From Isoetes taiwanensis (lineage: Eukaryota; Streptophyta; Lycopodiopsida; Isoetales; Isoetaceae): a DNA stretch of 64,000 bases. The notes beneath the pieces were generated by a model, which saw only the letters and a program-made list of their open reading frames with translations, made no database searches and was not told the DNA's origin. This document shows, one piece after another, positions 511 to 64,000 of this stretch (positions within the stretch are counted from its first letter, which is position 1; each line of letters begins with the position of its first letter). The stretch is from NCBI GenBank assembly GCA_021234155.1, contig JAJEKV010000072.1:1716526-1780525 (forward strand). The letters run 5' to 3'. The position numbers and the translations under genes are program-made.

Positions 511-648
511 CCATAGTGTGTTGTGTGGTGTGTCTTGGCGGCGATATGTTGTGTGTGTGTGGTATGTCTTAATGTGTAGAGAGTACCTTTGTGTTGTGTG
601 GTGTGTGATTGTGGTCTTCCATCGAGATGTGGCTTACTATGTTAGGAG

Positions 649-1401
649 GTGACATATCGTAGTGTTTTGTTTTTGCGGACTGGCGGCGGACTTGTGAAGG
701 AATGGTTGGCTGCAACATCAGCTGGGTTTGATAGATGCAAGCAACGATTGCACGCAAACGAGGATAGGAAAAATGATATCAAAAGAAAGATTGAGTTGTG
801 GAGCATAAAGCATAAAAAATTAGAGCTGATTTGCACAGATGGCAATCAATCATGACAGCAAATCCGAAAGCAGCAGAGGGTGTTCGGGTTGTAAGCGAAC
901 TAAAGGATGAAGAGCTAAATGGTACAGTGTTGCCTGGGCTGAATCAATTAAATAAGAAACTAGCAGAAATTGAAATTGAGCTAAAGGCATGTGAAGACTT
1001 ACTGCTGCAGCTGCAACCTCGAATGCAAAGATTTGAGATTTTTTCTGGGCATAGTGGTCATGACACTCCTTTAGATCCTGCACTTCCAATGCTTCCTGAG
1101 GCAGAAGAAGAGGGTGATGAAGGTTGTCCATTTTGTGGACGTTGTCTGAAATGGGAGGGTAAAATATTGCCAGTTGTGATAGCAGAATGCAGTCACCAGT
1201 ATCACATTCCATGTCTATCACACCATTTGAGGTAAATATTATCATCTCTAATTAACCCTCGTCTAAAGACTCTATTGATTTTGAATTTGTTTTGCAGACA
1301 CTCTAGAACCTGCTGCAGTCCCAGTTGTGCCCACATTATGACTGAGACATGGCTTTTGGCTTTTGGTGTTCGAGTGGTACCACAAGAACCAATAGACACA
1401 A
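649..1401 (+). CDS. Coiled-coil / RING-H2 zinc-finger gene (partial model)
   Basis: The reading frame encodes a charged, Leu/Glu-rich helical region (about 831-1080), then a zinc finger: CPFC, then CSHQYHIPC, and, after an intron, CCSPSC. The ligand order C-C-C-H-H-C-C-C fits a RING-H2 fold, typical of E3 ubiquitin/SUMO ligases. The intron is 1232-1297 (gtaaat...ttttgcag) and splices in phase, completing the last Cys pair; another donor (gtaagt) follows at 1402. The upstream stretch 649-845 is coding-like but in a different frame, so either a further intron or a frameshift lies near 840. The gene is followed by HAD and Ulp1-like coding on the same strand and may form one gene with them. The substrate is unknown. 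Confidence 0.6.
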
Positions 1402-6247: not shown

Positions 6248-6589
6248 CTGCATGAAAAACACTAAACTGTTAGGATGTGTATACCACACCAAACCATGCA
6301 CCATACCATGCCCCACACTCATCGTATTCACCCGAACGAGCACCTTAGTGCTGTGTACATTACCACACACCACACCACACCCCACCACACACCACACCAT
6401 ACACCATACACCAAATGTGTGGTGGTAGCAAGGAGTTGTAGGACATTGTGCAGGGTGGTGGAGTGTGGTGCTGGTGGTGGTGTGTTTGACCTGAAACCAA
6501 ATGCTATTAGCAATGATGATAACTTGTTCTAATGTTGCAAGGACATACTTAATTGATGCTGGAAAGACTCAATTGAAGGCATACAATTG

Positions 6590-7090
6590 AGTGGTGGTGG
6601 TGGGGGGTGGTGTGTGTGGTGGTGGTGGGGTGTGGTGTTGGGGGTGGTGGTGGTGGTGGTGGTGGTGGTGTGTGTAGTGGTGTGTGGTGGTATAATGTGG
6701 TGTGGTGGAGTGTGGTGGTGGGGTGTGGTGCTGGTGGTGGTGTGTGGTGTGGTGTGGTGGAGTGTGATGGTGATGGAGTGTGGTGGGGAGTGTGGTGGTG
6801 GTGGTGTGGTGTGGTGTTGTGGATTGTGGTGTGATGTGGTGTGGTGGAGTGTGGTGGTGGTGGTGGAGTGTGGTGGAGGGTTGTGGAGTGGTACATGGTG
6901 GAGTGTGGTGGTGGTGGTGGAGTGTGGTGGAAGGGTGCGGTGTGGGATATGGTGGAGTGTGGCGGAGGGGTGTGGTGTGGGATATGGTGGAGTGTGGTGG
7001 AGTGTGGTGGTAATGGACAATGTGGTGCATGTGGTAGTAATGTGGTGGTCGCAAAGATGTGGTGGTAGTCTATGGTGGTGGGATAGATGA
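6590..7090. repeat. TGG/GTGGTG minisatellite
   Basis: Degenerate array of TGGTGG, GTGTGGTGGAG and GTGGGATATGGTGGAG units on the + strand, the reverse complement of the array at 1-510. It lies wholly inside the transposase intron. Open frames across it encode only Val/Gly/Trp or His/Thr/Pro repeats. Confidence 0.9.
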
Positions 7091-7392
7091 TGGGGTGTGG
7101 TGGGGTGAGGGGGGAGAATAAATAAAATTGAATCCACACATATCATACATTAACATGCACACACCCACATGACACCATAGACATAACTCACCCCACACCA
7201 CACCACACCACACCACACCACACCACACATCATAATCACATCACTTTTATCCTATTTCGTCTGAAATAAAAAATCTGCCTAGCCTGCTCTCATAAACATT
7301 TCTGAAATTCGTACACCCTGATAATAATTACATTCCTCTTCTAATCATTAGAAAAGGATCTGGGTCCTAAATCCTGTACCTGCGTATGATTT

Positions 7393-19990: not shown

Positions 19991-20004
19991 AAGAAATGAA
20001 CTTG

Positions 20005-20840
20005 GTCCCCAGGGCAATGTCGACGTTGAGTCCATTGGCAGAGCCAAATCACGGTTTCGGAGAGGGGAGATCGCCCGTCCGTCCCCAGAGCCTTGGGGAG
20101 AGGAAATTCGGGGCAAGCAGCTTTCGGGGGTATTTTAGGGTCCGTGCTCTGGCGTCAACACCCTCAACTCCACTTCAAGACACGGTGCAAGGTCCCGGCC
20201 GAATCTGACAAGGAGAGGACCTCCGAAACGTAAATCGTATGGGTTGCCAGGTTCTAGAAGGGTTTGTGTTTTGGGGGCCGAGTTTTGGTTTGTTGCAGTT
20301 GGACGTGGCCGAGAAGCTGCGGCCGAGAACACGGAGCAAGGGGAACTGACGGAATGGAGTTTGGGCCTGTCCTCCTCCCGATGTGGCAATTAGAAGTCGG
20401 GGGGGGCTTTTGCAGTGGCAAGACATTCATAAATTCGTAATTAATGCATTGTATGAAAATAAATTCTGATTTTTTGCCAACTGGATTCCTAATTCATCTC
20501 CAGCACACAGCCCAATTTTCGGAATTTTTGGAGAAGGTCTAGGTCAAAGGGTTAGCATTAGAACGGTCGGGGCAGCCCGTTGCGGGGCAACCGAGCTGGC
20601 ACCCTTCCCCAAGTCAAACAAGGCCAGGACCTTGCAGGGCTCCCTCACAAGAGGGGAGAGTCCGGACCCCAGGAGGCGGGATCCAAAAAAGTTCCCGAGG
20701 CAGCCCTTCCTGGCAGCGCTCCCCCGGGGGGCCGCACACTAATGACCACCCTCCCGGAGCCCTGTTCCCCTATCTGACCGTTGGATCCTCCATTCAGGGG
20801 CCCCTCTTCGAGAAAGCCCAAAAGATTCAGATCGGTTCGG
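20005..20840. repeat. Direct duplication, copy 1 (~830 bp, GC-rich)
   Basis: It runs from CTTGGTCCCCAGGGCAATG to about CAAAAGATTCAGATC and is repeated at 21125-21960 with a few percent of changes (offset about 1.1 kb). The copy has no convincing gene; open frames on both strands are only about 65-85 codons and differ between copies. The two could be LTRs or subterminal parts of a transposon; no PBS or TG..CA ends were recognised. Confidence 0.75.
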
Positions 20841-21124: not shown

Positions 21125-21960
21125 CGGAACTTGGTCCTCATGGCAATGTCGACATTCTGAGTCCATTAACGGAGCCAAATCACGGCTCCGGAGAGGGGAG
21201 GTCGCCCGTCCGTCCACAGGGCCTTGGGAAGAAGAAACTCGGGGCAAGCAGCTTCCGGGGGGATTATAGGGTCTGTGCTCTGGCCTCAACACCCCCACTC
21301 CACGTCAAGACACGGCACAAGGTCACGGCCGAATCTGACAAGGAGAGGGCCTCCGAAACGTAAACGCTGTGGGTTGCCAGGTTCTAGAAGGGTTTGCGTT
21401 TTGGGGGCCGAGTTTTGGTCTGTCGCAGTTGGGACGTGGCCAAGAAGTTGCGGCCGAGAACGCGGAGCAAGGGGAACTGACGGAACGGAGTTTGGGCCTG
21501 TCCTCCTCCCAATGTGGTAATTAGAAGTCGGGGGGGTGCTTTTGCAGTGGCAAGACATTCATAAATTCGTAATTAATGCATTGTACGAAAATAAATTCTG
21601 ATTTTTTTGCCAACTGGATTCCTAATTCATCTCCAGCACACAGCCCAATTTTTGGAATTTTCGGAGAAGGTCTAAGTCAAAGGGTTAGCATTTGAACAGT
21701 CCGGGCAGCCCGTTGCAGGGCAACTGAGCTGGCACCCTTCCCCAAGTCAAAGGAGGCCAGGACCTTTCAGGGCTCCCTCACAAGAGGGGAGAGTCCGGAC
21801 CCCAGGAGGCGGGATCCAAAAAAGTTCCCGAGGCAGCCCTTCCTGGCAGCGCTCCCCCGGGGGGCCGCACGCTAATCACCACCCTCCCGAAGCCCGGTTC
21901 CCTTATCCGACCGTTGGATCCTCCGTTCAGGGGCCCCTCTTCGGGAAGGCCCAAAGACGG
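21125..21960. repeat. Direct duplication, copy 2
   Basis: Second copy of the GC-rich unit at 20005-20840, from CTTGGTCCTCATGGCAATG. The end differs: its last 53 bp are repeated in inverted form (21904-22027). Confidence 0.75.
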
Positions 21961-27512: not shown

Positions 27513-30500
27513 TTAAGGGACATAAACGAATGGCTCGGGGGGTGCTGGTTCACCATCTTCAGCTGCAATTGCTGAAAGTGAGCTTGGGGGTGCTATGCCA
27601 CCAGCTGCGTTCCCTGTTCCCCCCGGTGCAGCAGGATTATCAGTAGAGACTAGTTCTACTGGTTCTGTTGGTTCTAGATCCTTTAACATGACAAACCCAG
27701 AAGGTGTTCTTTTGACAGGTGCATAGCGACAACCTTCTGGGAACTTTATATACTTTTCCTGAAGCGGGACTACCCTAGCTGGGTTGCTGAGGGTTTCAGA
27801 TGTTGCTTCTGCCCCAACTTTCTTCTCTGGCCCACTATCAACCTGCAAGGCAACATAAAACTTAAGCCCCATATATCAATTGTGTCGACATTATAATAGG
27901 GGAATTAGTCGTCTACCTCCATTGCATCGCCATCCTTAGCACCCTCTTTGCCTGATGTGGACTCCTCCGTCGCACTATCCTGGGGTACACTGACCTCTCG
28001 TTCGGATTTCATTGCACTTTTTAATTCAGCCTCCCGTCTGGCCTTTGCTCTAGCTGAAGTAGAAAGAACTGCAGTTGGCAACTTTATGCTTGATGAAGTT
28101 GATGGTGGCACTGCAGGTGCTGGATAGGCAAACATTGCAGGCTTCACATCTGATATGAACTCAAACTTTGGCATTCTCAACTCATGGTTGAGACCAATGA
28201 AAGCTGTTGGCGCAAACGACAGGCTAATGAAATAAATTAGTGGATACCAATACCAGAACTGACTAAACACTGCCATCCCTACAACTGCCATCACACGGTC
28301 ATGACCAGTCCTTGACTGAAGATTTATAGACACATTACGACCACCAGCATCCAATATTCCATATGCTAGTATTGCACCCATCTTGCTCATAGTATCCTCA
28401 TGCTTGTCAAGGACAATTTTCTCCAACTGCCGCCTACAGTTTAGATCTCACGGAAATTAATCCCACTTACAGTATAAAACTTTCTGGATTCAGTTTCCAA
28501 CTCATACCTGAAGATGCCAACATGTGGATCCCGAGCTTCCGTTGCCTGCATAAGGACCATAGCCATTGCCATGAGGGCACCCTGCCGCACAAAGTCAACT
28601 GCATCCGAGGTTAAAGGTTCCAGCAATGATATAGCTTCACTAGATGCTGTTCCAGCACATGAGATCCCCACGGCCATAGCTGCACCATATCTCACGTGTG
28701 CATTGTATGACTCTGAAAGAAGAGATACGATCCTTGGAGTCTGATGTAGATCACAATCATATTAACACAGTGTCACCCTTTGTAATTGTTTTCATAAGTC
28801 AAAAGTTAAAAGGAGATAGCAACCACAATAGAACTAACCTGTTCAGGTTCAGAGCATAGAACAAATCCTAGAGCCAAAACTGCGGCTCGTCGTACATCGT
28901 CACTGACATCTGAAACTGCAAAGTGTAGAAGTCGCCGTATAGCACTATTGTTCGAGGTACCTCTATATGCAAGTGCCAACGCATACATCCCACCATAGCG
29001 CAATATGGGATCTTGATCCCTCGTCATTTGCTCAATAAGTGTGTCCGCTTCCTCTTCACGGCCATATACAACCAAAGCAATACCAAGTGCCAAACCCCTG
29101 CAAAGCCACTACTGCATTAGAGAAAATAAATCTACTCTACATGCAAAATTACAAATGCTTAAGTTTATGAGTAAGCATGCGAGAAAATTGTCCATATACT
29201 GTACCTGATAATCTTCTCATGCTGCGTATCATGCGCATATGCAAGCATCTCCGTTGCCTTTTCACTTGAGGTTCCGACCATAAGCAACCCCATTGCAATC
29301 CCAGCTGCCTCGCCTCCCACTGCACTGTCTGTATACAGCACGCTTTTTATGTCTTCATAAATCTCCTCGTCGGCTGTTCCTAGTGCTGCTAATCCAAGCC
29401 CAAGACAGGCTCCATGTTGAATAACCTGCTCATTGCCATATGATATGAGAACAGCAGGGGGAAAAAATGAACTTGAGAAGATTATAATTTAAACCTCATT
29501 GTTGGTCTTTCTCAAGCTCTCAAGCAGGAATTGTTTGATGCCCTCCCCATGATTTGCATGGATAAGTCCTAAAGCATAAAGCGCTCCACCCTCAGAGTAT
29601 GGGCTCCCACCACCACTTCCACCATTTTGTGGCAGATAGGGGGCCATTAAGGATCTCCCTTGCTGAAGATGGCCTCTGTGGATGACACCAAGACCAGCTG
29701 TGGCACTGAACTTTGCCCAATTTGTTGCTCTGCTGAGCCAGTCCTGATCCATAATAATGACGTTGCGTTATTATAATTCACATACATTCACGAGCATATA
29801 TTTAATTCGTGAGACACACACCAGGTTTTCCCGTAAAAAGGTATCCACTGTTGTACCAGCATGCATGAGCGCATTAGCATAAATAGTTGAGCTGTGACAT
29901 ACGCTGTTTCGCATCTCCACAGATTGTTTAATGGTCTTCAAAATAAGAAGATCTGATCTGAATAACAGAAGAAAATAGCATAGATGTGTTTGAGATAAAA
30001 ATATTTAAACAAACAAGTGCACTAAAAAGGATTGCCTAGACACCTGTTCCGATTGTAGAGAAATTGGAGGGTAAGATTTATAGGTGTTTCCCCAGATAGA
30101 ATTTTTTTTAGTTTTGTCATCCTATCTGCATAAGTCATCAACTCCGGATTTTCTGTGCCACCATCCGTGTTGCCCTTTTCTCCAATGTCCATCTGATCAG
30201 CCTCCGCTGTGTTTGCAGCAACATTTGCAGTGCTAGTGGCACCATTCTCCACTGGAGATGATAAATTATCACCAGCAGTACTTGGATTACTTCCAGGTTG
30301 TGGCTCTGGGAGATGATCACGCACTTTCAGAAGAAAAAGCTGGTATTCATTCTCAAATAGATCAAATGCTATTTGATATGCCAGCAATGCATCAACCTGC
30401 ACTTAGAAATTATACGAAAATGATTTTTTTCTCCACCAGCCAAAATATTCACAATCATCATACCTTATCGCCCTTGATAAGCCTATCCAAAATAGCAGCA

Positions 30501-43849: not shown

Positions 43850-44215
43850 GATCCAATTAAGCATTTGGACAGGCATAAGAAGGCGTAAACAAAAGCATTG
43901 AAGTCTTAGCAATGTTGGAAAACTTGAATTCACGTATAAAACAGGATGGGCATGTGCCAAATGTGGACCTTTTTGTTTGGCCTACCTCTGATATGGAAAG
44001 AGAGGCATCTTTGTGTGGCCATGCCGAGAATGTTTGCCACAAGGGCAAACATTACGGGTGACTAAAAACTTAAGGATGTGCACTGATTGTCATGATGTAA
44101 TGAAGGTAATATCCGGATTGAAAGAAGGAAGATTGTTCTTCAAGAAAGCAATTGGGTCCACCATTTTAAAGAAGGCCCTGCTCTCGTTCCCTGTGGAGAT
44201 ATGTGGTGATTAAAA
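43850..44215 (+). pseudogene. DYW deaminase-domain remnant of a PPR gene
   Basis: The + strand frames encode KLNSRIKQDGHVPNVDLFVW, then REASLCGHAENV, then TLRVTKNLRMCTDCHDVMK, ending EICGD before a stop. This follows the DYW domain of plant RNA-editing PPR proteins: the HSE zinc motif (here HAE), the CxxCH motif (CTDCH) and the C-terminal GDYW (here GD then stop). At least one frameshift lies near 44050. It ends exactly where the left inverted arm begins (44198), so it lies next to, but on the opposite strand from, the PPR-E fragment in the arm. Confidence 0.7.
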
Positions 44216-46422
44216 CCCTTATGTAGATCGTCACCATAAAGGATAGGACAAGATACAATGAGGAAATGTGCCTTTGGCATTTTGGGTGCTATTTTGAATT
44301 GCGGTGTGAACCGGGCCTAATGTGCTTAGGGGCAACATGAAAGATGGCTAAGACTTCAAGACTTCTCATTGATCTCTATAAATACCGATATGTGGGCTTT
44401 TTCTCCACCCCGTATTTTTCTCGGCTCTCTTATTACGATCGCATCAATGTACATTCCAAAGACCGTGCATAGATCTTTGTTTTGAGAAGCACATATGGGG
44501 AAGTGCTTTCTTTGTCTATCTCGACTAACTCGCTGAAAAAACACCGAGTCCTAATTCTACTTCCCCATAAACTTTGCAAGAACTAAGCAAAGCCATCCAT
44601 GATTCTATAGATGTGTAGGATGGCAAGGTCTCTAGTAAATGTCTTCGCCTCAAACAGTGTCCGATCGTGCAAAAAGATCAATCATGCAACCGTAATGATA
44701 ATTTTGTTGGAATAATGCCGTATTTTTCTTGCATATTTTAAAATACACTTGACACCGTGGTCACTAAGTCGGCACGATCGCATGCGGTGAGAACACATAT
44801 GAAAGTAATACTATCCGGTTGTATGTTCCCGTTGCATCATGGCATCAAAACATTGTATAGCCATGCTACACTTGTGGTTAGTCTTGATCCTCTTATCATT
44901 GCATTCCAAGCCGCGATTATTGAATTGGCACCTTTCAAAGACTCTTTGTGCATCTCGCAACCAGAGCCACATTTAGCATACATATCAACCGAGCACTCCC
45001 AACAAAGACATCTAGCTCAAAGACTATTTTTTGTAGCATCTCCGTATCTTTTCGTCCCTTTTCTATTGCTCCTATGCTAGCACAAGCGTTATGTAAACAG
45101 AATAAACGTTATCTCAGATTTGTTATTCTTGCAAAGTTCGATTTGTTCTTGCAAAGGTACAACACAATGATAACTCAATTTTGAAGGATAATAAACCTAA
45201 TCTCTACTTGCTACAGATTAGTCTTTCGAACAATCATGAAAGGTGCCTCTTTGGACCTAACTAAGTTAATGCAAATGCCATGCAAAAATGGACCTAACTT
45301 TCGATAGATGGCAAACCTCCTTTGTCGTGATCAACCTCAATCCCCAAATGCCTAGAATATATATGTAGGCCCATAAGAAAATTATGAAAAATGATCATGA
45401 ACCTACCAAAGGAAGAAGGTGTATCTCACGGCCAAATGTGAGGTGCTCCCAAATATCCAGGTGCTTCCAAGCAAGAATCGTTTACGTAGGTTGGCTAATC
45501 TGCCCCGCAATATACCATTAATGGTGTTGCTTGATTGCCCAAATGTGGAACAAATTGGATGACAAATGTGAGTCTAGAATAGTGCCCTACAAATTCTTCA
45601 ATGTAGAGTCTTTGATAGTTTATCTTTAGGCCATTTTACAAGAAGATTCCCTAGATATCATGAATAGACAGTGCAACATCCTCTTCTACATTAAGTGACC
45701 AGCATTTTGAAGCACTAAAAACAGAATGTGCCACTTCAATGTCCTCTATTTTAACTCATTATTTTGGTTTTTGCCTCCAATTCTAAAGCTTAATATGAAG
45801 GTGCAAACATGTTCCCAATTGATGCAAAACATTCGTGATAAGCAATCGCTTGTGTTCACAATCAAACATAGAAACAACTGTCTAGAATCAAATGATAAGT
45901 TAATAATGACACACCTAGAACATGATACTTGGGGACTCCCATGCCATAGCCGCCCATGATAGGGACTTAGGAAGTTTGAAAGGGACTCTAGCACAAATAT
46001 ATCACGTTTGCTTTGTTGTTGCAATATTGGAACTTTCGTGATTTGGTCTACATGAGTTCACATCTACAAATCTCAGAAGTTAAAGAGCAAGACTCGAACT
46101 TCTCACTACAGTTTTCTAAATTTTGAAGCAAGTCTCAAACTTTTCACTACTCATCCTCTCATATATTATTGTTAAAAAAAAAGAGATTTGCCAGGTCCTT
46201 GCTCATGCCCAATCTTTACCTTTGAATAATAACGTCAAGATATTAAGCTTGCTTGCTAGGGCCTCGATCCTAAATACCTATGCTGCCTCTATAGCTGCTG
46301 CTGGCATCTTCACAGATGCTTGTTCTGAGGCATGCTCTTCGTATGCAGCATGAAGACCAACATCTTCTCCTTCACTTATTCATGAATTTTCTCACTTATT
46401 TTCATCCCTTGATTTTGGCTTA
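44198..46422. repeat. Left arm of 2.2-kb inverted repeat
   Basis: Reverse complement of 46678-48890, with many scattered differences and small indels in the outer half and near-identity in the inner part: the frame at 46123-46353 and its mirror at 46746-46976 encode the same 76 residues. Confidence 0.9.
44345..45085 (-). pseudogene. PPR-E fragment, left-arm copy
   Basis: Inverted and more damaged copy of the PPR-E sequence at 47990-48736. Many small indels break the frame; short pieces such as FIEINEKS near the 3' end remain. Confidence 0.7.
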
Positions 46423-46677: not shown

Positions 46678-48890
46678 AAGCCAAAATCAAGGGATGAAAA
46701 TAAGTGAGAAAATTCATGAATAAGTGAAGGAGAAGATGTTGGTCTTCATGCTGCATACGAAGAGCATGCCTCAGAACAAGCATCTGTGAAGATGCCAGCA
46801 GCAGCTATAGAGGCAGCATAGGTATTTAGGATCGAGGCCCTAGCAAGCAAGCTTAATATCTTGACGTTATTATTCAAAGGTAAAGATTGGGCATGAGCAA
46901 GGACCTGGCAAATCTCTTTTTTTTTAACAATAATATATGAGAGGATGAGTAGTGAAAAGTTTGAGACTTGCTTCAAAATTTAGAAAACTGTAGTGAGAAG
47001 TTCGAGTCTTGCTCTTTAACTTCTGAGATTTGTAGATGTGAACTCATGTAGACCAAATGCAGAAGTTCCAATATTGCAACAACAAAGCAGGTTGATATAT
47101 TTGTGCTAGAGTCCCTTTCAAACTTCCGAAGTCCTATCTGGGCAGCTATGGCATGGGAGTCCCTGTCCATGTTCTAGGTGTGTCATTATTAACTTATCAT
47201 TTGATTCTAGACAGTTGTTTCTATGTTTGATTGTGAACACAAGCGATTGCTTATCACGAATGTTTTGCATCAATTGGGAAATGTGTTTGCACCTTCATAT
47301 TAAGCTTTAGAATTGAGGCAAAACCAAAATAATGAGTTAAAATAGAGGACATTGAAGTGGCACATTCCTCGCTTTTTTAGTGCTTCAAAATGCTGGTCAC
47401 TTAATGTAGAAGAGGATGTTGCACAGTCTATTCATGATATCTAGGGAATCTTCTTGTAAAATGGCCTAAAGATAAACTATCAAAGACTCTACATTGAAGA
47501 ATTTGTAGGGCACTATTCTAGACTCACATTTGTCATCTAATTTGTTCCAAAGATTTGGGCAATCAAGCAACACCATTAATGGTATATTCGGCGATAGCTA
47601 CCATGAAGTTAACGATTCTTGCTTCTGGAAGCACCTGGATATTTGGGAGCACCTCACATTTGGCCGTGAGATACCTGCTTCCTTTGGTAGGTTCATGATC
47701 ATTTTTTCATAATTTTCTTATGGGCCTACATATATGAAAATCATTGCGGGGGATTGAGGTTGATGCAAAGAAAGGAGGTTTGCCATCCAACGAAAGTTAG
47801 ATCCATTTTTGCATGGCATTTGCATTAACTTAGTTAGGTCCAGCAGGCAGCCTTTCATGATTGTTCGAAAGACTAATCTGTAGCAAGTAGAGATTAGGTT
47901 TATTATCCTTCAAAAATTGAGTTATCATTGTGTTGTACCTTTGCAAGAACAAATCTGAACTTTGCAAGAATAACAAATCTGAGATAACGTTTATTCTGTT
48001 TACATAACGCTTGTGCTAGCATAGGAGCAATAGAAAAGGGACGAAAGATACACAGAGATGCTACAAAAAATAGTGCTGAGCTAGATGTCTTTGTTGGGAG
48101 TGCTCTGGTTGATATGTATGCTAAATGTGGCTCGGTTGCAGATGCACAAAGAGTCTTTGAAAGGCTGCCAATTCAGAATACTGCAGCTTGGAATGCAATG
48201 ATAAGAGGATACAGTACTAACCACAAGTGTAGCATGGCTATACAATGTTTTGATGCCATGATGCAACAGAACATACAACCAGATAGTATTACTTTCATAT
48301 GTGTTCTCACTGCATGCAGTCGTGCCAGCTTAGTGACCACAGGTCAAGTGTATTTTAAAAATATGCAAGAAAAATACGGCATTATTCCAACAGCCGATCA
48401 TTACAGTTGCATGATTGATCTTTTTGCACGATCAGGACACCTGTTTGAGGCAGTACATTTACTAGAGACCTTGCCATCCTACACATCTATAGAATCATGG
48501 ATGGCTTTGCTTAGTTCTTGCAAAGTTTATGGGGAAGTAGAATTAGGACTCAGGTGTTTTCAGCAGTTAGTCCAGATAGACAAAGAAAGCACTTCCCCAT
48601 ATGTGCTTCTCAAAACAGCATCTATGCAGGTGCTGGAATGTACATTGATGCAGTCAGAATAAGAGAGCTGAGAAAAAATACCGGGGTGGAGAAAAAGCCT
48701 GCAACGGTATTTATAGAGATCAATGAGAAGTCTTGACTTAGCCATCTTTCATGTTGCCCCTAAGCACATTAGGCCTGGTTCACACTGCAATTCAAAATAG
48801 CACCCAAAATGCCAAAGGCACATTTCCTCATTGTATCTGTCCTATCCTTTATGGTGACGATCTACATAAGGGTTTTAATCACCACATATC
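46678..48890. repeat. Right arm of 2.2-kb inverted repeat
   Basis: Reverse complement of 44198-46422. It carries the better-preserved PPR-E fragment at its outer half. Confidence 0.9.
47990..48736 (+). pseudogene. Captured PPR-E gene fragment, right-arm copy
   Basis: The frame begins inside a PPR motif (ACASIGAIEKGRKIH), continues VGSALVDMYAKCGSVADAQR, AAWNAMIRGYSTNHKCSMAI, QPDSITFICVLTACSRASL and DHYSCMIDLFARSGHLFEAV, then the E motif (IESWMALLSSCKVYGEVELG). It continues in a shifted frame after about 48610 with YAGAGMYIDAVRIRELRK and FIEINEKS to a stop at 48736. There is no start codon and no upstream PPR tract; the single frameshift makes it a pseudogene. Such organelle RNA-binding proteins are abundant in plants, and capture of gene pieces is typical of Helitrons. 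Confidence 0.8.
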
Positions 48891-52306: not shown

Positions 52307-53848
52307 TGTGACGTTCCAGGTATCTATATGGTATACGTATACATACTATGACACGTCACCAGTACATAGTGGGCCTAAGGGCCCAAGTGGGGGTTCGCCT
52401 ATAATGGATTTTATTAGCTATGCTAATAAAACCAATGGATAATTATGGATTATAGTGGCATAATTAACCTAATTATGCTATTATGGTCTAATTAACTAAT
52501 GGTCACCAATAAGGGGGTGCCACCTGGCCCAAATCGATTGGCCACCATTTTGGGACATGCAATAGGGGTCCTACCCCCAATTCATCCCAAATTCGAATTG
52601 GGAGTGACGAGGAGCAGCAGCCAGCAGCTTACACTCGTTTTTGCCAACACTTACCCACCAGCCTCGAACTATGGATGCCTACCATGACCATGGCTCTAGC
52701 CAAGACACTGGTTAGTCAATAGATAGCTTCTTTCTCGATGACACTTCTTTGAGTAGATGGAATGATTAAATTCTCTTTTATAAGTTGTTCTAAACACTTG
52801 AATGGTATTTACATTAGTTCTTTCTGCTTCTTCCGTGTATTGGGAATTAAGAGAAGGGTAGAGACCTAAAAGCCTCTTAGCATTAGAGATGTCTCTAGCT
52901 AGATCCCTTAATACCCAATAATTGCGGCCTGTGCACAAGAGCCAACCTGGCTGTGGATGCTATGATGTGGTTCAGCACCAGACAACGAGTATGAGGGTTG
53001 AATCGGGGTGGGGTCTTGCCTAGCGTGGCTACAGGACTCCTATAGTGTGCTAGGCTTATAGCCGGTCACTGTGTGTGGGCCGGGTATGGGTCTGACACTC
53101 TCTGGGCCGGAGGGCGTGAGTCTATATGGCCATCCTGGGCTCGAACGGGCTAGTGAGCTAGCCTTTAGATTTAGGGGAGTAAGTCGAGTATAGATGCGAG
53201 GGTCACTGAGGGGGCACGTGTTCTCTAGCACACCCAGGGATCCGTCATACTCGGGGAGGAGACGCCTCTCTGACCTGCCTCATCGGACCGGGGAGATGTA
53301 ACCCGGAGTAGTCCCGAAGGGTGATTCCTTGGGATTGCGTCTCCGGAGGGCTACAAGCACGTCATAGCATGATTCAACCTATCTGCAAGGTGTGCACAGG
53401 AGGGGCGGATGGAGTGGACAACCCTAGCCATTGTCTTATGCCAGCCAACGCCATGTTATACTTTCGTCTGTTGATATCTTGAGGCCCTGGCCATCAGTTG
53501 ATCCCTTGGAGTCTGAGCCCGGGGTAGTGCCTTGTCATGGTGTTATTTATTTCATGTTATTATGGATGTATTATCTTTTCCGTGACGATGATGGATGGGC
53601 CACCTTCCGTGGTGGTATATTATTTGCATGATGATTGTATGCTAACGTGTATGTATGCTTCCGCTGTATAGGCTTTCCCATAGAGGACGTGGGACGAATG
53701 ACACCTCCGTGTTCCTCGCTCGGACACTTGGCCATCCCAAGTGGTCCGAGTATGACAGAGGGCCTTGCCATGGTGATGTAGTTGCCATGGGAGGGGAATT
53801 CCCATATTTATATGATGGGAGCATCGTATAGATTCTGGGAGCGTCACA
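52307..53848 (+). repeat. 5' LTR (1,542 bp)
   Basis: It starts TGTGACGTTCC and ends GGGAGCGTCACA, with 7-bp perfect inverted ends TGTGACG/CGTCACA. The first ~680 bp match the 3' LTR. The primer site follows after one base. Confidence 0.95.
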
Positions 53849-53849
53849 G

Positions 53850-53865
53850 TGGTATCAGAGCATGG
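53850..53865 (+). other. Primer-binding site, tRNA-iMet type
   Basis: TGGTATCAGAGCATGG lies one base after the LTR end. TGGTATCAGAGC is the common plant LTR-element complement to the 3' end of initiator Met tRNA. Confidence 0.9.
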
Positions 53866-54471
53866 TTTTGGTGGACCAAAATTATTAGTCTAACTCATTA
53901 GTTGATGGTACTCCTCCTAGGTTAGAGCGTTCCAACTCTGTAGTTAGCATCTTAGTTGGCCTAGTTATGGGAGGAATGACCTAGTTGTATGGAAAAAGTG
54001 CTCTCTAGTGGAGTGGCTAAGGTCAGAAAGTGGAGCCAGAGGTTCGATTTTTGTAATCGCCATAACTTTCTCCACCTAGCTCGGATCGACGAGATTTTTG
54101 TTCAAGCGCGTCGCGCATGGTCCAAAACCCTAGGGGAGTTGTCATCCGGCAGCAACAGATCGACGAAGGGGCCCAAAATCCAACTCGGGCACCGCTCAGG
54201 TTTGGGCGCTCCAGAATCGCGGTAGAAATGCGTATAACCCGACTAGCAACCGACCGTATATTGGCGCATATTCCCGCCATATAAATTTAAAAAGAAAAAA
54301 AAAGTTTCAAAAAAATTTTAAATTAAAAAGTGAAGAGACGTTTCTTTTTGTGCCCGCCTTAGCCACAGCCACCGGAACCCGAGCTTGCAACCCCGTCTCT
54401 GCCTGTGCCCTCGCCATCTCCAATCTTTAGCGCCTCACTTCCCGTCTTCCCTCCAGTCATCGTCTTTGTCC

Positions 54472-55764
54472 ATGGCCCATACCAAAGGTACTTTGAGCCC
54501 CGCCAACTTCACAATCCCTCAGATCTACGCCATGCTTGGGGAGCACCTGGCCACCGACCCTGATATGGTCGAGCTCCTCTTAAACGAGTTGGTGCAGCAT
54601 TTCAGTGATGGTCTGAGGATACCCTACCCCATATTCCACCTCTTCGAACGCTTCTTGATCAAGTTTAACCTCCAACGGCAGGCGTATACCATGGTCGAGC
54701 AACCCGACCAGGTTATGGTACTGGTTAAGTTTTACCCACCTGAGTGCGAAGAATATCCTGAAGAGGAGGCCATTCGGAGAGAGGCGGCCCGCATCAGGGG
54801 ACTGGCCCGCGAGGACGACACCAGGGAGATAAAAAGGGGTGACACCGCGTCTAGGGGCCGTGAGTACGTCTACCTAGGTGATGGGAGAGCCATCATCAAT
54901 CGTGAGCCCAACGAACTTCCCACATATGAGTGGAATGAGGCTACCCAGAGCTTCACGTGCGGTGAGATCCCATCACATGTCAGCCTGGATTACCTGATTA
55001 CGGTCCAGTTGGATATGCGACTCCGGCCAGACCGCTACCATCAAGAGCTGCTTCGAAGGGTCGCGGCTCGGCGGTTTGCTCAGGTAGAAGCCGACATGGC
55101 AACAGCCCGTGAGGCCAGGGAATGGGCAGAAAAGGCCCAACAAGAGCAACCACAGAAGGCGCAGCAGGAGCAGCAACAAAACCCGGACCAGCAGCAGCGG
55201 CAGCAGCAGGCCAACACAGAGCAGGAAACCCCGTGTGGGCCCGATCCGGTGGACAAGCCGCCTATTAAGAGACGTCGGAAGTCCACCGCTCGGAAGTCCG
55301 GCAGCCAGTATAAGAAAAAGCTCAAGGCTGTCGGGAGCATAGGGAAACACACAAGCTCGAGTCGCCGGCAAGAACGGATGGATACCGCACGGCCCCATCC
55401 AGTTTCTGCAAGCAAAACCCTACCCAAGAAGTCTGGCCCGATTCCAAAAGCTGCTACCTCAAGAAAGCCCCATCGTTTCAAACCGGGCACCGTGGCCTTA
55501 CGGGAAATCCTTAAATACCAGAAGACCACGGAGCTGCTACTGAGGAAGCTCCCTTTTAAGAGGTTGGTCAAAGAGATAGCACAAGAGTTTAAGACCGACC
55601 TCCGCTTCCAGACCTTTGCTATTTTGGCACTTCAGGAAGCTGCTGAAGCCTACCTAATTGCTCTTTTCAGTGACGCGAACCTTTGCGCTATCCACGCAAA
55701 GAGAGTCACAATTATGACCAAGGATTTAGCTCTTGCCCGGAGAATCCGGGGAGATCATCTTTAG
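54472..55764 (+). CDS. Retrotransposon ORF with C-terminal histone H3 domain
   Basis: One uninterrupted frame, open from a Met at 54385 and more likely starting at the Met at 54472 (context TCCATGGCC), gives 430 residues (459 from the upstream Met). The first ~200 are unrecognised ([20 protein letters not shown]; acidic [19 protein letters not shown]). A Gln/Glu/Ala-rich helical stretch and a Lys/Arg-rich linker ([19 protein letters not shown]) follow. The last 99 residues (codons 55465-55761) are a histone H3 core: [66 protein letters not shown] and LARRIRG. By eye about three quarters of positions match canonical H3. Loop 1 has normal H3 length, unlike centromeric H3. The tail before it ([17 protein letters not shown]) is not a standard H3 tail. 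There is no stop or frameshift, in contrast to gag-pol. It lies between primer site and gag. Confidence 0.9.
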
Positions 55765-56001
55765 TTGCCTTTAGGCATATCCACTGTACCAATTTTGTAA
55801 GGATGAATATTAATCCAATTTTTGTTCACTTTGTCTCTGTTGCAAAAAATAAATAAATAAATAAATAAATAACTAATTTTTGATAATTATTGAATGCTGA
55901 CGTCAGCATAAAAGTAGAAAGGGTATTTCAAAGTTTTTAGGGTTTCATTCCTCATCACTTACCTTTCTGTTCATCTTCCTCCTTCATTCCTTCCAGCGTC
56001 A

Positions 56002-57374
56002 ATGGCCACTGCCAACCTGCTTGAATGGTATCAAGATGGGGAACACTGGGACCCTCAAGTCCCCTTCGACCTCCTATAGCCTTTCCTACTCCAACGCATA
56101 GGTCTCATATCCAACATGCAGAGTCACCCTGACTATGCTGGATTTTTGGAGTTCTACACCGAGGAGATGATTCCTCTTTGCATCCCTTTGGGAGAACCCC
56201 CACAGCTTTACATTGAGCGAGCTGTGGTGAGGGAGATGCTTGAAGGAGACACCCACGCATACGATGTGCTTAAGGGCAAACTCTGGTGGGGCCGTAACCC
56301 ACCCGTCGTCATACATGAGGGTCAGCAGTTCCTTGAAGTGGCCTTTGCTTTGGCCATCCTCATGGATCAGTATGTGGAGGATGAGGCCCTGCTAGCAGAG
56401 AAGGGCAAGGTCCCGAAGTCATTAGATGAGGAAGAGGACGAGCATATTGGGATGGATGACTTCGTTTGGTGGAAGCAGTTGGCCGAGGAGATGCTGCCAC
56501 ACCGGGAGCGAGGGGCACCCCTGTCTGGGGTGGATGCCCTTACAGTTGTCTATCACCAAGGTCAGGAGTTCCTCCTCTTGGATGATATTCTCTGGACATA
56601 CCATGTAGTGGCCGGTTTGAAGGGACGGGAGAAAGTACAAGTCCTTTATGAACTGGCAGAATATTGCATGGATGACTTCATCGATTTTACACCAGTGGAC
56701 CTTCCTCCAGAGGTGCAGCAGCTGCTTCAGTTCCACCAGCAGACCATAGAGCCGGCCGACACTCTTCTTCGGCTTAGAGATCTTGTACTTCAAGATCCCC
56801 CATCTCAGCCTCCCACGGAAGCCTTCACGGCCATGGGACCCCATGTCCCAAACATCAACATGGTCGAGATCCCCTCCGACTCAGATGAAGAAGGGGAAGA
56901 CCTTTATCATAACCCTGCCCATCTTAGGGAGGAGAAGGAGGAGCTTAAGGAGGAAGAGGTCCTTATGGACCTGGATAAGGAGATAGCCACTTCGGTTACT
57001 CCACAAGGAAAAGCGTTGGGGAACCACAGAACCCGCTTCTTCTCTTTGTGGCCCGGGACTTGGCCCCGAAAGCCGAGGCATCGTGGTGGAGCCTCCGTGC
57101 TTTGTCCACTTTGGCAGGGCACAAGAAGTTGTCGTACCGTGTCCTCACTTATGTGTTGGTGCGCCGGGACTTCGCCCTTACCGCCTTGGGCCAGGACATA
57201 GCACCCTGGATGAGTATGAAGCTCCTCACGGCAGCCCCTTTAGCTGTTGCCTATCCCCCAGAGGTTGCATCCCTTGCGGATGCCATGGTTGACCCAGGGG
57301 TCACCCCGTTACGCCATCGCCGGCCACCATCACCTCCTACACCAATGGACCAGGATGCGGGGCCTAGCTCCTAG
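56002..57374 (+). pseudogene. Second extra retrotransposon ORF, unknown, broken
   Basis: It starts MATANLLEWYQDGEHWDPQV at 56002. An in-frame TAG at 56077 follows 25 codons, after which the same frame runs open to 57201, with an acidic region (SDSDEEGEDL, EEKEELKEEE) at about 56880-56980. Coding then appears to continue in another frame (57048-57374: LAPKAEASWWSLRAL, KKLSYRVLTYVLVRRDFALT) to a Pro-rich end (RRPPSPPTPMDQDAGPSS). So there is one nonsense change and one frameshift. The protein is rich in aromatic and acidic residues and has no family I recognise. It lies between the H3 ORF and gag. Confidence 0.5.
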
Positions 57375-57560
57375 CTAGATGTAACAGCCATTATAGAGTA
57401 TGGCCTTTGGCCACTCAAAAAAATATGTAATATTGCATTGATATTTTCATGCACTTTTGAATACAAGCAATTTTTTTTTTTCCTACAATACTTGTCTTTC
57501 TCTTTCTAGAGTTTGAAGTATAAGGAATAATTCATTTGTTGTATATCCATTCTTGCCTTC

Positions 57561-57808
57561 TTACAGAAGAAGAAGAGGAAGAAGAAAAAGAAGAGAAAGA
57601 ATAAGAAGAAGAAGAGCAAGAGGAAGAAGACGAAGAAGAGGAAGAAGAAGAGGGAGAGCCATACGACCCCATCAAGGGCTTTGAAATAGTTAACATCCTT
57701 CGTGACCATGCTTTCGAACATTTACAGCTTACGCTTCGTCGAACTTGGTCGTATTGGGACTGCACTAAGCAAGAAGCTTTTAATGATGCTAATGATCATC
57801 TTTGGTAG
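57561..57808 (+). pseudogene. Acidic ORF remnant before gag
   Basis: A run of about 30 Glu-rich codons, with an in-frame TAA at 57602, leads into EPYDPIKGFEIVNILRDHAF and TLRRTWSYWDCTKQEAFNDA, with a stop at 57806. The second part looks like real protein but is unrecognised. Poly-Ser frames on the other strand are shadows. Confidence 0.3.
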
Positions 57809-58111
57809 ATATATTATGCGCTCCGAGATCTCTTTAAACTTCTAATCATCAGCCCTACTTTGGAATTCCAGTACGTCATCATCCAAGCTTGGGCTAGGTA
57901 AAAAATGGTCCGGGCAGTGAGGGAGAGTATTCGACACTCTATTCTATATCCCTTTATGCAGCCCTAAGCTAGCTTGTTTTAATGTTTCACTTGTCTGTGT
58001 GCAACTTTTGTTTTCTATGTGAGGTCAAGATCTTTTTTTTGTAACCGTGTTTTCATCTTAATAATAAAAGTGCTTCTTTTGTAAAGTTTTGTCACAATCA
58101 ATGAAGTTAGC

Positions 58112-59460
58112 ATGCTTATCTTGGATTGTTTTATCTTAGACGGTGCACGCCCTCCCCCTTGGGCGACACCCGTGCAACCGGGCTATCTTACCCCGGAGCA
58201 AGAGCTCACTATTATGAAGCGGCAGCTTACTGAGCTCCAAGCCTACGTACTACAAATAAATCCACCTCAAATGCCACAGGAGTACAGACCAGAGATTCCT
58301 GCTCCGCAGAACCCGCAGCCGCCGCCAACCGCACCTGCACCTGTGCCCGCCACAGCAAGTCGATCTAAGAGGACACGCCCTAGTTCTTCCTCTGATGCTG
58401 CCTTGGAGTCTTCTAACTCTACCGCCCCGACCATGCCAAAACCAATAAAAAGGATTATCAGAAAACAGTGGATTCGACTATCACTAGCATTTGGAAGAAC
58501 CGGAAACTCGCACAATTTTTGGGCAAAACCAGGAATGGAGTGGATGCAGAGTCATGGTTGGATGAAATGCAGGAGTTTGGAAAGTCATACGGCATGACTG
58601 ACAAGGATACCGGCAAAGTTGCCACCACAAACTTTACAGGGTCAGCACGAATCTGGTGGAAAGGATATGCCCGCTCTCATGGGCTCACAAGGGGAAGGTG
58701 CCGCTATAAAGTCTTTGCTAAAGCCTTCAAGTCACATTATGTGCCTAGAGTGCATCATTGCCAATAGATCCAAACCTTCTACCGCCTGGAACAGAAAAAC
58801 ATAACCGTCCAGTCTTATACGGATGAGTTCATGCGATTACGCTTATACGTCCCAGGAAGTAATGAGCGTAGGGCAGTTGAAGGGTATATTGAGGGTTTAT
58901 CCCCTACCATAAGGAAAATAGTTCGAGCCATAGACCCTAAGACCGTTGCAGAAGCAGAGGCTAAAGCACTTAGCCTAGAAGAGGACATCCCGAAGTACCA
59001 TCCGCCACGACCCTCTTCGTTCACTCAGAACAAGGGGTATACACCTTACAGAGGGCGCTCACCTAGTCCAGGGCCTCCCGCCTCTACTGGATATCAGAAG
59101 ACTGAGAAGCAAGTTTCCTTCACCGTACCAGAGAAGTCTACCAACACTGCAGGAGCTTTCAGAGGTATCCTCCAAGCCATCCCTAGGGAGACCCGCGAAC
59201 AGCTACGTAGGGAGAAGGCCTGTTATCGGTGTTTCCGCCCGGGCCACCGTATGCAAGAATGCCCTTACATTACACAGACAGTGCAGGCTGCCCTGGCAGA
59301 TATGGATTGGGAAGACCCGGATAATGCTGTTGAGGATGATACGCCTGACTATATAACAGGTGAGTGTCACATTTATGCTCCCATTGAAACAGGTCAAGCC
59401 AACCACCAGCCCTCTGTCATTTCTACGGTCGGTCAAGTAGATTGTAAACCTTTGTCATTC
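58112..59460 (+). pseudogene. gag: gag polyprotein, degraded
   Basis: A Pro-rich N-terminal part, then, after a frame change near 58470, the retrotransposon gag domain (NRKLAQFLGKTR, ESWLDEM, GSARIWWKGYA), an in-frame TAG at 58765, and continuation (FYRLEQKNITVQSYTDEFMR). A CCHC zinc knuckle is at 59221-59262 (CYRCFRPGHRMQEC, spacing C-X2-C-X4-H-X4-C), close to normal. The frame shifts again before the protease. The Gag would package the RNA; this copy is not translatable as one protein. Confidence 0.9.
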
Positions 59461-59462
59461 TT

Positions 59463-60595
59463 ATGGATACTGGTAGTACTCATAACTTTGCATCTCCTAG
59501 AATGGCAGAAGCCTTGCACATCACCCCTTTGAGGTCTAAACCACGTCCAGTTACGCTGGCAAGTGGTGCCATACGCCACACCTGTGGTCACTATATCAAT
59601 TTGAATATTCAGCTGTCAGGGGCACCAGTTGCTTTAGGAGCAGAAATAATGGATATTGGCCATTATGATCTCATTGCGGGGATGGAATTCCTGGCCGCTG
59701 CCAAGGCCAACATTGACTGTGAGAAATGGGAGGTCACCTTCAATGCGGCCAATGGAGCCCGAGTTACTATAGCAGGTAAGCCTATTATGCAATGTATTTC
59801 ATTATGCCAATTGCATAGGGCTCTCAGGAGATTACAGATCACGGGCATGATTCGACTTGCTTCAGTGGAAGCTAAGTCCAAACAGGATGAAGCCCTTGAT
59901 GCCTTGCCTCCCGCAATAGACGTGGTTCTTCGAGAATACCATGATCTTTTTCCCGATGAAATCCATCGGTTGCCACCATTCGGAGGGGTGGAATGTGAGA
60001 TTACCTTGGAACCAGACACCAAGCCTACCAGTAAGGCCCCTTATCGGATGAGTATTCCAAATTGATCGAGCTTAAGAAGCAGTTGCAGGAACTCCTCAAA
60101 TTAGGCTTCATTAGGCCTAGTGTTTCACCTTTTGGAGCTCCGATACTCTTTGTTAAAAAAAAGGATGGCACCCTCAGAATGTGCATCGATTACCGTCAGC
60201 TAAATAAGCATACTATTAAGAATCGGTATGCCTTACTGCGGGCAGACGATCTTATGGAATCTTCGATCAGAATATCACCAGATAAGGATTAAGGAGAATG
60301 ACATCCATAAGTCCGCTTTCCGAACGGATTACGGGCATTACGAATTCACGGTGATGCCATTTGGCCTAGCTAATGCTCCGGCCACCTTTATGAGACTTAT
60401 GAATGATGTCTTCCGCGAATACCTTGACGATTTTGTCATAATATTCTTCGATGATATCCTCATATACAGTAAGACCTTAGAGGATCACGAACGACATCTT
60501 CGGTTAGCCTTACAGAAATTGAGGCGCCACCAACTATATGCCAAGTTCTCCAAGTGTCACTTTTCCACCACCAAGGTTGATTAACTGGGACATAT
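59463..60595 (+). pseudogene. pol: Protease and reverse transcriptase, degraded
   Basis: The protease begins with the active-site motif ILMDTGSTHNF (DTG) at 59457-59490. The RT follows after a frameshift at about 60060: [37 protein letters not shown], then a gap, then [36 protein letters not shown], and the catalytic [10 protein letters not shown]. Between DDLMES and YHQIRI, near 60255, about a dozen residues normally holding the first catalytic Asp (SKIDL) are missing and the frame shifts, so the RT is dead. A stop follows VD at 60582. The order PR-RT is that of Ty3/gypsy. Confidence 0.9.
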
Positions 60596-61324
60596 TGTGT
60601 CCGCAGAGGGAATAGCCACCGACCCAGCTAAAATTGAAGCAGTCAAGGATTGGCCAATCCCAACCAATGTGTCTGAGGTCCGCAGCTTTCTAGGCTTGGC
60701 CGTAAATTTGTCAAAGACTTTGCCAAGCTCGCCACACCTTTAACCGACCTGACTAAGCATGATAAGGTTAGGGATTGGATGGCACATTGGAAAGACAAGG
60801 TGCAGATCGGATTTCAAGCATTAAAGGATGCGCTAACAACAGCTCCTGTTCTTACAATGCCAGATCCTCAAAAGGATAAGTGGGTTGCCACAGATGCCAG
60901 TAAAATTGCTACAGGGGGAGTCTTAATGCAAGAAGGTCGGGTTATCGCTTATGATTCTCGAAAGATGAATGACGCTGAGCAGCAATACCCCACGCATGAC
61001 CAAGAGTTGCTCGCCGTTGTGCGTGCTTTGTGCATTTGGCGGCATTATTTACTTGGAAGGCGATTCCAGTTAGATACTGATCATCAAAGCCTCCAATACA
61101 TCTTCACGCAACCCCATCTCAATATGAGACAAAGATGGTGGATGGAATTCCTGGAGGAATATGATTTCGAGCTCATTTACAAACCGGGCAAGCATAATGT
61201 TGTTGCTGACGCCCTTTCTAGACACCCATTCGTCACTCGAATGCATTGTAATGCTATCTCCACACTCTCCAGTGAGTTCGGGAAGCAGATTCAGCAGGCC
61301 CTTCCCATAAACCCGAAATTCTGA
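60596..61324 (+). pseudogene. pol: RT connection and RNase H, degraded
   Basis: [20 protein letters not shown] continues the RT thumb, and a frameshift follows near 60700. RNase H is well preserved at 60779-61324: WVATDASKIATGGVLMQEG, YDSRKMNDAEQQYPTHDQEL, RHYLLGRRFQLDTDHQSLQY and HNVVADALSRHPF. A TGA at 61322 ends the frame where a Trp codon could be expected; the same frame continues on. Confidence 0.85.
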
Positions 61325-62599
61325 GAGGTATGGCAAAGTGTATCTAAGGAAGCCAGAAAGGATAAGGAGAGAGAGACCTTCTGCCATTATAAGAAGGAAG
61401 CTGGACTCCTTTATTACAAGGACAAGTTATGTGTTCCCGAGACATCTGGAGTTCGTAAGCTCATTCTCCATGATACACATAACAGTCCTATAGAAGGACA
61501 TGCAGGATTTATAAAAACGTATTTCAAAATCCACTCTAGCTATTTCTGACTGGGAATGAAGAAGCATATCGCAAGGTATATTAAGAAGTGCCAGACCTGT
61601 CAACAAACAAAGGCAGAGCAGTTGCGTATTCCAGGAGAATTGCAATCCCTCGATGTGCCCAACGCTAAATGGGAAGTTATTACCATAGATTTTATCGTGG
61701 GGCTTCCACGCACCTTAAGAGGGTTTGATGCCTTAATGGTCGTGGTCGACAAACTTTCAAAGATGGCACATTTCCTGCCATGTCGTACCATAGACACTGC
61801 ATTGGATACCGCCTTGCTCTTCACGAGGGAGATATTTCGTCTGCATGGGATGCCCCGTACCATTATATCAAACTGGGATCCTAAGTTTGTTAGTGCATTT
61901 TGGAAGGATTTCTTCAGCACTATTCAAACTAAGCTTGCCATGAGCACAACTTATCATCCACAGACAGATGGTCAAACAGAGCGTACCAATCGCATAATTG
62001 AGGATATGCTACGTAATTATGTCTGGAACAAACAGTCTCACTGGGCAGACTACATTCATTTGGTAGAGTTTGCCTACAACAATGCCAGACAGGAGTCTTC
62101 AAGGATGTCTCCTTTCATGATAAATTATGGCTATCAATGCCTTACACCAGACACGTGGCATAACCCAGTATCAAAGGTCGAGGTTTCTCAGCAATTGCTT
62201 ACAGACATGCAAGCGTTAGTCGAGGAAGTACGGGCATACTTGACAGCCGCAAGAGCTCGGCAAAAGAGCCTAGCCGATCGACACCGTACTCCCTGGGAGT
62301 TTCAGGTCGGTGAGTCCGTCTGGTTAAAGATCAAGGTCAAGCAAGCCAAACTTAAGATTGGCAACTATAAGAAGCTTGCACCTAGATGGGCGGGACCAAT
62401 TGAGATCACCGAAAGGATAGGGTCTCAAGCCTACCGGTTGGATCTACCCGCAAATTTAAAGATCCATAAAGTTTTCCATGTAAGTCTTCTCAAGAAGCAT
62501 CATCCGGATCCGGAAGAGATTCTTGACACACCAACACTTCTCGAGATGACTGAGGATCAGTTGGAGATTGTGCCAGAAGCTCTCCTTGATCGTTCCTAA
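61325..62599 (+). pseudogene. pol: Integrase, with in-frame stops
   Basis: The HHCC zinc domain spans 61440-61610 (LILHDTHNSPIEGHAGF ... CQTCQQTKAEQ) with a TGA at 61547 where Trp would fit. The core has ITIDFIVGLP (D), SNWDPKFVSAFW (D, usually SDRD) and HPQTDGQTERTN (E). The C-terminal GPY/F module reads LAPRWAGPIEITERIGSQAY and KIHKVFHVSLLKKHHPDP. The frame closes at TAA 62597-62599, just inside the chromodomain linker, and is open from 61556. The integrase would insert the cDNA. Confidence 0.9.
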
Positions 62600-62857
62600 A
62601 AGCAAACCCGCCGAACTCAGATCTTGCAATACTTGGTCAAGTGGAAACACTTACCCACAGAAGACGCAACATGGGTTCTTAAAGCGGATTTGGATAAGAC
62701 TTACCCAGACTTTATGAAGGAATACCAGGGCCGAACCATTCAAGATGCAATCATCTTCAGCCCGGATGGTAAGCATAGTGTTCTTTTAGTGCGACATGGG
62801 TCATATGAGCGAGATCCGGCAGGGATCATTCTAGGGGTTGGGTTATATGCATCTTAG
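62570..62857 (+). pseudogene. Integrase C-terminal chromodomain
   Basis: In the same frame as integrase but after the TAA at 62597: QTRRTQILQYLVKWKHL, EDATWVLKADLDKTYPDFM. The spacing YLVKWK...EDATW is the chromodomain signature of plant chromoviruses; such domains read methylated H3 and steer integration. The frame ends at 62855. The stop separates it from the integrase in this copy. Confidence 0.85.
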
Positions 62858-63302: not shown

Positions 63303-63314
63303 AAGGGGGAAGAA
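63303..63314 (+). other. Polypurine tract
   Basis: AAGGGGGAAGAA lies immediately before the 3' LTR start TGTGACG, the site of plus-strand priming. Confidence 0.9.
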
Positions 63315-64000
63315 TGTGACGTTCCAGGTATCTATACGGTATACATATACATACCATGACACGTCACCAGTACATAGTGGGCCTAAGGGCCCAAGTGGGG
63401 GTTCGCTTATAATGGATTTTATTAGCTATGCTAATAAAACCAATGGATAATTATGGATTATAGTGGCATAATTAACCTAATTATGCTATTATGGTCTAAT
63501 TAACTAATGGTCACCAATAAGGGGGTGCCACCTGGCCCAAATCGATTGGCCAGGAGGCACTTACCATTTTGGGGAATGCAATACGGGTCCTACCCCCCAA
63601 TTCATCCCAAATTCGAATTGGGAGTGAAAAGGAGCAGCAGCCAGCAACTTACACTCGTTTTTGCCAACACTTACCCACCAGCCTCGAACTATGGATGCCT
63701 ACCGTGACCATGGCTCTAGCCAAGACACTGGTTAGTCAATAGATAGCTTCTTTCTCGCTGACACTTCTTTGAGTAGATGGAATGATTAAATTCTCTTTTG
63801 TAAGTTGTTCTGAACACTTGAATGATATTTACATTAGTTCTTTCTGCTTCTTCCGTGTATTGTGAATTAAGGGAAGGGTAGAGACCTAAAAGCCTCTTAG
63901 CATTAGAGATGTCTCTAGCTAGGTCCCTTAATACCCAATAATTGCGGCCTGTGCACAAGAGTAAACCTGGCTGTGGATGCTATGATATAGTTCAGCACTA
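63315..64000 (+). repeat. 3' LTR (first 686 bp, cut by window end)
   Basis: Starts TGTGACGTTCCAGG and follows the 5' LTR closely. One 11-bp difference lies at about 63552 (AGGAGGCACTT extra), with roughly 20-25 scattered substitutions by eye. Confidence 0.95.

Follow-up and report, generated by a model that had tools for sequence, protein, structure and literature searches.

Chromoviruses are known for chromodomains able to read histone marks, and one carrying an H3 of its own would form a direct link between a retrotransposon and the nucleosome. The available portion of PMC6317226 states that no partner has been identified for the type II chromodomain of plants, and the word "histone" occurs once in that article, for H3K9 binding by chromodomains. 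The closest precedent in kind for the locus described here is an orchid Ty3/gypsy element with an m6A demethylase, reported in the accessible part of PMC9289625: Phalaenopsis elements carry an ALKBH5-like enzyme of this kind, represented by 38 consensus sequences in one species and 23 in another, and its activity was tested. The captured domains named in section 12 of that text do not include a histone. Captured histones have so far been described in DNA viruses, according to the sections used here of a viral-histone review (PMC9145170) from which the word "retrotransposon" is absent, and an H3 held by a chromovirus would extend them to reverse-transcribing elements. The same sections report single viral H3s (Manila clam xenomavirus, Dishui Lake phycodnavirus and others) that are 73–87% identical to the host H3, three of six having lengthened tails with added N-terminal stretches of 35–68 residues in the examples given, and a bracovirus H4 that joins host nucleosomes (PMC9145170).

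We observed an open reading frame (ORF1) encoding a fusion protein with a C-terminal H3 in a 64,000-nt stretch of Isoetes taiwanensis DNA (the window), where it lies intact inside the LTRs of a chromodomain Ty3/gypsy retrotransposon. This element shares with plant chromoviruses its LTRs, primer-binding site, polypurine tract, gag knuckle, protease-reverse transcriptase-RNase H-integrase order and chromodomain, but differs ahead of gag, where it has about 4.2 kb with two extra ORFs, the H3 fusion being one. In this element and in those of Phalaenopsis, all of them Ty3/gypsy, an extra ORF holds a captured host domain; there it is represented by many consensus sequences and a tested enzyme, here by one copy of a structural chromatin protein known from sequence. 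Compared with the viral H3s covered in the sections used of PMC9145170, which belong to DNA viruses and have 35–68 added residues, ORF1 belongs to an LTR element and has about 265 residues plus a tail; at the chaperone site, those named there read SAIL or TAIL and ORF1 reads FAIL. The ORF1 core is also about 80% identical to plant H3s, a comparison made with plant H3s in general and not with the host H3. An additional internal ORF without an assigned function is a likeness to other plant LTR elements that have captured genes or gained further ORFs, as described in the available parts of PMC7264820, PMC11963269, PMC3726574 and PMC13317346, but the word "histone" is absent from the main texts of all four. 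Our literature search, which covered open-licence papers and could miss a rare capture, returned no report of a histone in an LTR retrotransposon, in agreement with an initial annotation of this DNA that knew of no Ty3/gypsy element with its own H3.

The element around the H3 fusion

The element extended from 52307 to past the end of the window, and all of its features given here lie on the forward strand. The right end of the 5' LTR (52307..53848, TGTGACG...CGTCACA) was set by the inverted terminus CGTCACA and the adjoining primer-binding site. Its first 672 bases (52307-52978) matched 63315-63998 at about 95% (650 of 684 positions identical), and this match defined the 3' LTR (63315..64000), whose right end lies beyond the window. 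The two LTRs differed by 22 mismatches in 672 ungapped columns (3.3%; 16 transitions and 6 transversions), which at usual plant substitution rates places the age of the element, as an order of magnitude, at one to several million years. Directly after the 5' LTR end and one G we found TGGTATCAGAGC (53850..53861), which we take to be an initiator-Met tRNA primer site, and the polypurine tract AAGGGGGAAGAA (63303..63314) was observed immediately 5' of the 3' LTR.

Gag with a CCHC knuckle (58112..59529) was recognised by profile and translation and was frame-shifted with one stop, while protease, reverse transcriptase, RNase H and integrase (59448..62596) were spread over several frames with stops. 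Profile matches within pol included RVT_1 (6.3e-24), RT_RNaseH (1.3e-32), SH3_Tf2-1 (2.2e-21) and a weak rve (0.0012), and were followed by a chromodomain at 62606..62731 (Pfam PF00385, 2.6e-10). The features of a chromovirus were thus observed, with an LTR pair with inverted ends (the 3' LTR partial), a primer-binding site, a polypurine tract, reverse transcriptase and RNase H ahead of integrase, and a chromodomain where the integrase ends. Frame changes or stops occurred at about nine places in gag-pol, counted from translations, so the present copy is probably not autonomous.

A plain chromovirus has less than the approximately 4.2 kb observed here between primer-binding site and gag, an interval that contained both ORF1 and a second accessory ORF (ORF2), each running in the sense of the element. 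The initial annotation had put the H3 reading frame between these two landmarks; its position stood, and the element proved more complex than described, with ORF2 intervening before gag and with gag-pol defective. The ORF2 region (56002..57198) had an in-frame TAG at 56077-56079, was open over 56080-57198 and may contain a frameshift near 56985. Its codon-position GC of 0.70/0.29/0.60 over 56116-56982 showed a strong bias. No Pfam family and, in viral contigs, no relative was found for ORF2, and we rejected it as a duplicate of ORF1 in view of the absence of similarity between the two.

The leader ahead of ORF1 carried seven ATGs, all before 54231, so that translation of ORF1 would need splicing or an internal start. 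An acceptor-like pyrimidine tract ending in CAG (54434..54456; 16 of 18 pyrimidines) was observed 15 nt 5' of the ORF1 ATG, and a second such tract with CAG (17 of 18 pyrimidines) ended 5 nt before the ORF2 ATG. The ORF2 tract ranked first and the ORF1 tract tied for second among 16 sites listed for 53849-58300 (21 in the whole element). From these signals it is a reasonable guess that ORF1 and ORF2 are made from spliced mRNAs.

The reading frame and its H3 core

ORF1 (54472..55764, 430 aa) was identified by ORF prediction, Pfam and shuffling. Its first ATG is at 54472 and its stop codon ends at 55764, while the frame is stop-free from 54334 (476 codons) and gives 459 aa from an upstream TTG, as the initial annotation had it with 430-459 codons. 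A chance ORF was rejected, since the longest stop-free run in any of 2000 dinucleotide shuffles of 54300-55800, read in six frames, was 313 codons (mean 132). We also looked at whether ORF1 is a host gene to which the LTRs do not extend, an outcome that would have counted against the original proposal, and rejected this as the LTRs lie on both sides of it. No lesions were observed in ORF1 versus about 11 in gag-pol and ORF2, a count from translations that is not significant alone (P 0.12).

The last 99 residues of ORF1 (332-430; 55465..55761) aligned without gaps to H3 residues 37-135, ending at the last residue of H3, and Pfam Histone (PF00125) matched residues 302-426 at 5.8e-39. An H3 core of normal spacing at the end of an intact frame inside a chromodomain LTR element, as proposed at the outset, was thereby borne out. 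Among 176 matched PDB sequences the 60 listed were all H3, and the core shared 78 of 98 positions with an H3.1-like plant H3 and equally 78 of 98 with an H3.3-like one. To compare cores more widely we used 240 fetched proteins (best 120 per search), of which 208 had ungapped full cores, 107 of them distinct; in this set, which is biased towards the query, the closest core was that of an environmental protein (P0157) at 84.5% identity. The Ceratopteris protein P0166 was rejected as a related copy, since it consists of an H3.3-like sequence in doubled form and lacks the N-terminal part. CENH3, whose hallmarks are a lengthened loop 1 and a divergent core, was likewise rejected because the ORF1 core was ungapped against canonical H3 through loop 1 and about 80% identical.

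The core had Phe41, Phe87 and Leu90, a mixture of plant H3.1 and H3.3 states at what we take to be the positions separating the two, Leu90 being the H3.3-like state. The chaperone site read T86-F87-A88-I89-L90. Three changes (R52L, Q68K, E105S) altered sites invariant across the 107 distinct cores, and some other changed sites also vary among natural H3s in the same query-biased set. Residues C110, H113, R116, D123, L126, R129, R63, K64, R83, K115 and T118 were kept, which we take to be among the H3-H3' and DNA-contact residues. Changes were not depleted at a chosen set of contact or marker positions (8 of 35) relative to elsewhere (12 of 63). In the full-length AlphaFold2 model the H3 part had low confidence (pLDDT 42-70 over blocks), and the 50 structural matches listed included no histone, so the H3 fold rests on sequence homology.

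With one copy of the fusion examined, we tested the randomness of the replacements by simulated neutral substitution in place of Ka/Ks. Starting from the H3 consensus and introducing the same 19 replacements at transition weights of 1, 2 and 4 (4000 runs each), neutral means of the BLOSUM62 sum were -9.7, -9.0 and -7.8 versus an observed sum of +15, a value attained by 0, 1 and 9 of the runs, respectively. With three actual H3s as ancestor (19, 19 and 15 replacements in 97 residues) the P values were 0.0005, 0.002 and 0.011. The 15-19 core replacements were more conservative than neutral mutation in all six settings (P at most 0.011), and a stop codon arose along the way in 55-67% of neutral runs. 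The H3 core is thus complete, ungapped and conservatively altered, and the nature of its replacements argues that an H3-like protein was under constraint as it diverged. The simulation fits divergence within the element and divergence in a host gene prior to capture alike, as the changes are not dated.

The residues upstream of the core

Upstream of the H3 core, AlphaFold2 run on the single sequence predicted a small domain at residues 1-95 (54472..54756; mean pLDDT 68.5) in the order helix-helix-strand-helix-strand-strand, within which residues 15-87 are predicted to have helices and strands in the order seen in winged helices, in a model of a part for which no relative was found. Fold searches with predicted models of the ORF1 N-terminal part gave nothing significant. 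Residues 1-215 were compared with 5.8 billion proteins, in a search admitting proteins 0.55 to 1.75 times the length of ORF1, and none of the 1106 candidates had an E up to 1; no relatives of ORF1 were found in viral contigs and prokaryote genomes, collections with hardly any plant DNA. A long helix with one break was predicted by AlphaFold2 at residues 188-249 (55033..55218), its end overlapping a Gln-rich stretch. Motifs of the KRRRK type serve as nuclear import signals, and the KRRRK at residues 266-270 (55267..55281) is a putative signal of this kind.

Residues 267-276 (55270..55299) are a candidate remnant of H3 residues 1-10 (ARTKQTARKS), with 7 of 10 identical and a shuffle P of 0.0004, which becomes 0.006 when the match may fall on any 10-mer of the H3 tail. 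This likeness suggests, without certainty, that the fusion may have joined an entire H3 reading frame to the end of some 265 residues from a different protein and that its tail contains an insertion, though gapped local alignment of the whole H3 tail, where the K4, K9 and K27 contexts lie, to ORF1 was not better than shuffles (P 0.11-0.23). The earlier description of the upstream ~330 residues as non-histone holds for a long in-frame part of them, with the possible exception of this short stretch.

Origin of the fusion and its possible role

Our preferred reading, tentative at a probability of roughly 45%, is that a plant chromovirus acquired a host H3, fused in frame behind another protein, and kept the product in an accessory role, its H3 part having retained the H3 fold. 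The capture and fusion put forward in the initial annotation are supported by the in-frame fusion inside the LTRs and its well-preserved core. The captured H3 coding sequence was probably whole, and the fusion would have been placed upstream of gag. The H3 part would pair with host H4 and be accepted by histone chaperones, perhaps through a replication-independent route given the H3.3-like state of Leu90, and through this part the fusion would reach the nucleus and stay on chromatin, while its front part may bind a component of the element or its DNA. One outcome could be the tethering of the element, or of pre-integration complexes, to chromatin; another could be chromatin bearing a non-standard H3 whose long tail is specific to the element, affecting silencing or integration. 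In favour of an acquired and retained H3 are the LTRs flanking ORF1, the 99-residue ungapped core ending where H3 ends, the conservative replacements, the kept contact residues and the lesion-free frame, and the single viral H3s with lengthened tails offer a precedent (PMC9145170, in the sections used). Against it stand the one copy, the N-terminal part for which no relative was found, changes that could predate capture, R52L, Q68K and E105S at invariant sites, contact positions not depleted of changes, the low-confidence H3 model with no histone among 50 listed structural matches, the seven leader ATGs and the lesion P of 0.12.

Transduction of genes by LTR elements is exemplified by maize Bs1, which took up other genes, and a single element copy could have picked up an H3 transcript in the same manner, with template switching as one conceivable route, leaving ORF1 without a role for the element. 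We consider this possible but rather unlikely. Only one copy is known here, an (AAAT)-rich stretch after the H3 stop could be a relic of a transcript end, and plant LTR elements often contain captured genes that exist in one or few copies, according to the parts available of PMC7264820 and PMC13317346. Yet the core, which differs from plant H3s by about 20%, is still open and conservatively changed, and most passengers evolving neutrally would have acquired a stop. The conservative replacements thus speak against a dead passenger, except where they had already arisen in a host gene when the capture took place. That exception is the basis of an unlikely explanation in which an already divergent host H3 variant was captured recently, so that the conservative changes would record selection on the host gene and not on the element; the simulations cannot date the changes, and part of the variation is shared with natural H3s of the query-biased set, but no close protein was listed, the best of the fetched cores being that of P0157.

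A later nested insertion, in which a transposon or processed gene copy with ORF1 (and ORF2) landed in an ordinary chromovirus, appears very improbable. The length before gag, beyond that of a plain chromovirus, and its resemblance to two gene-like units would agree with such an event, but the shared sense of the two ORFs speaks against it, as does the absence from 53849-58200 of a nested LTR pair and of strong terminal inverted repeats. We accordingly rejected a nested LTR element or TIR transposon, the longest inverted pair in that interval being 30 nt at 73%. Going beyond the preferred reading of an acquired accessory H3, we regard as quite doubtful that a whole LTR retrotransposon lineage has its own H3 variant with a 330-residue front, loaded by the H3.3 route, and that the nucleosomes so marked guide the chromodomain integrase or shield copies from silencing. 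If true, this would be a reverse-transcribing element writing its own chromatin and not just reading that of its host.

Elsewhere in the window, long His/Thr/Pro-rich ORFs at 11-652 (+) and 6529-7146 (-) derive from simple repeats and are probably not genes. Pieces of host-type genes were observed for an NLI-interacting-factor-like phosphatase (2062-2586, +), an RPN2 C-terminal domain (27908-28426, -) and PPR repeats (48114-48659, +). We also observed a direct repeat of about 830 bases at 19998-20822 and 21127-21955 (92% identical), and a 2.2 kb inverted repeat at 44198-46421 and 46678-48890 with 94% identical arms lying close together.
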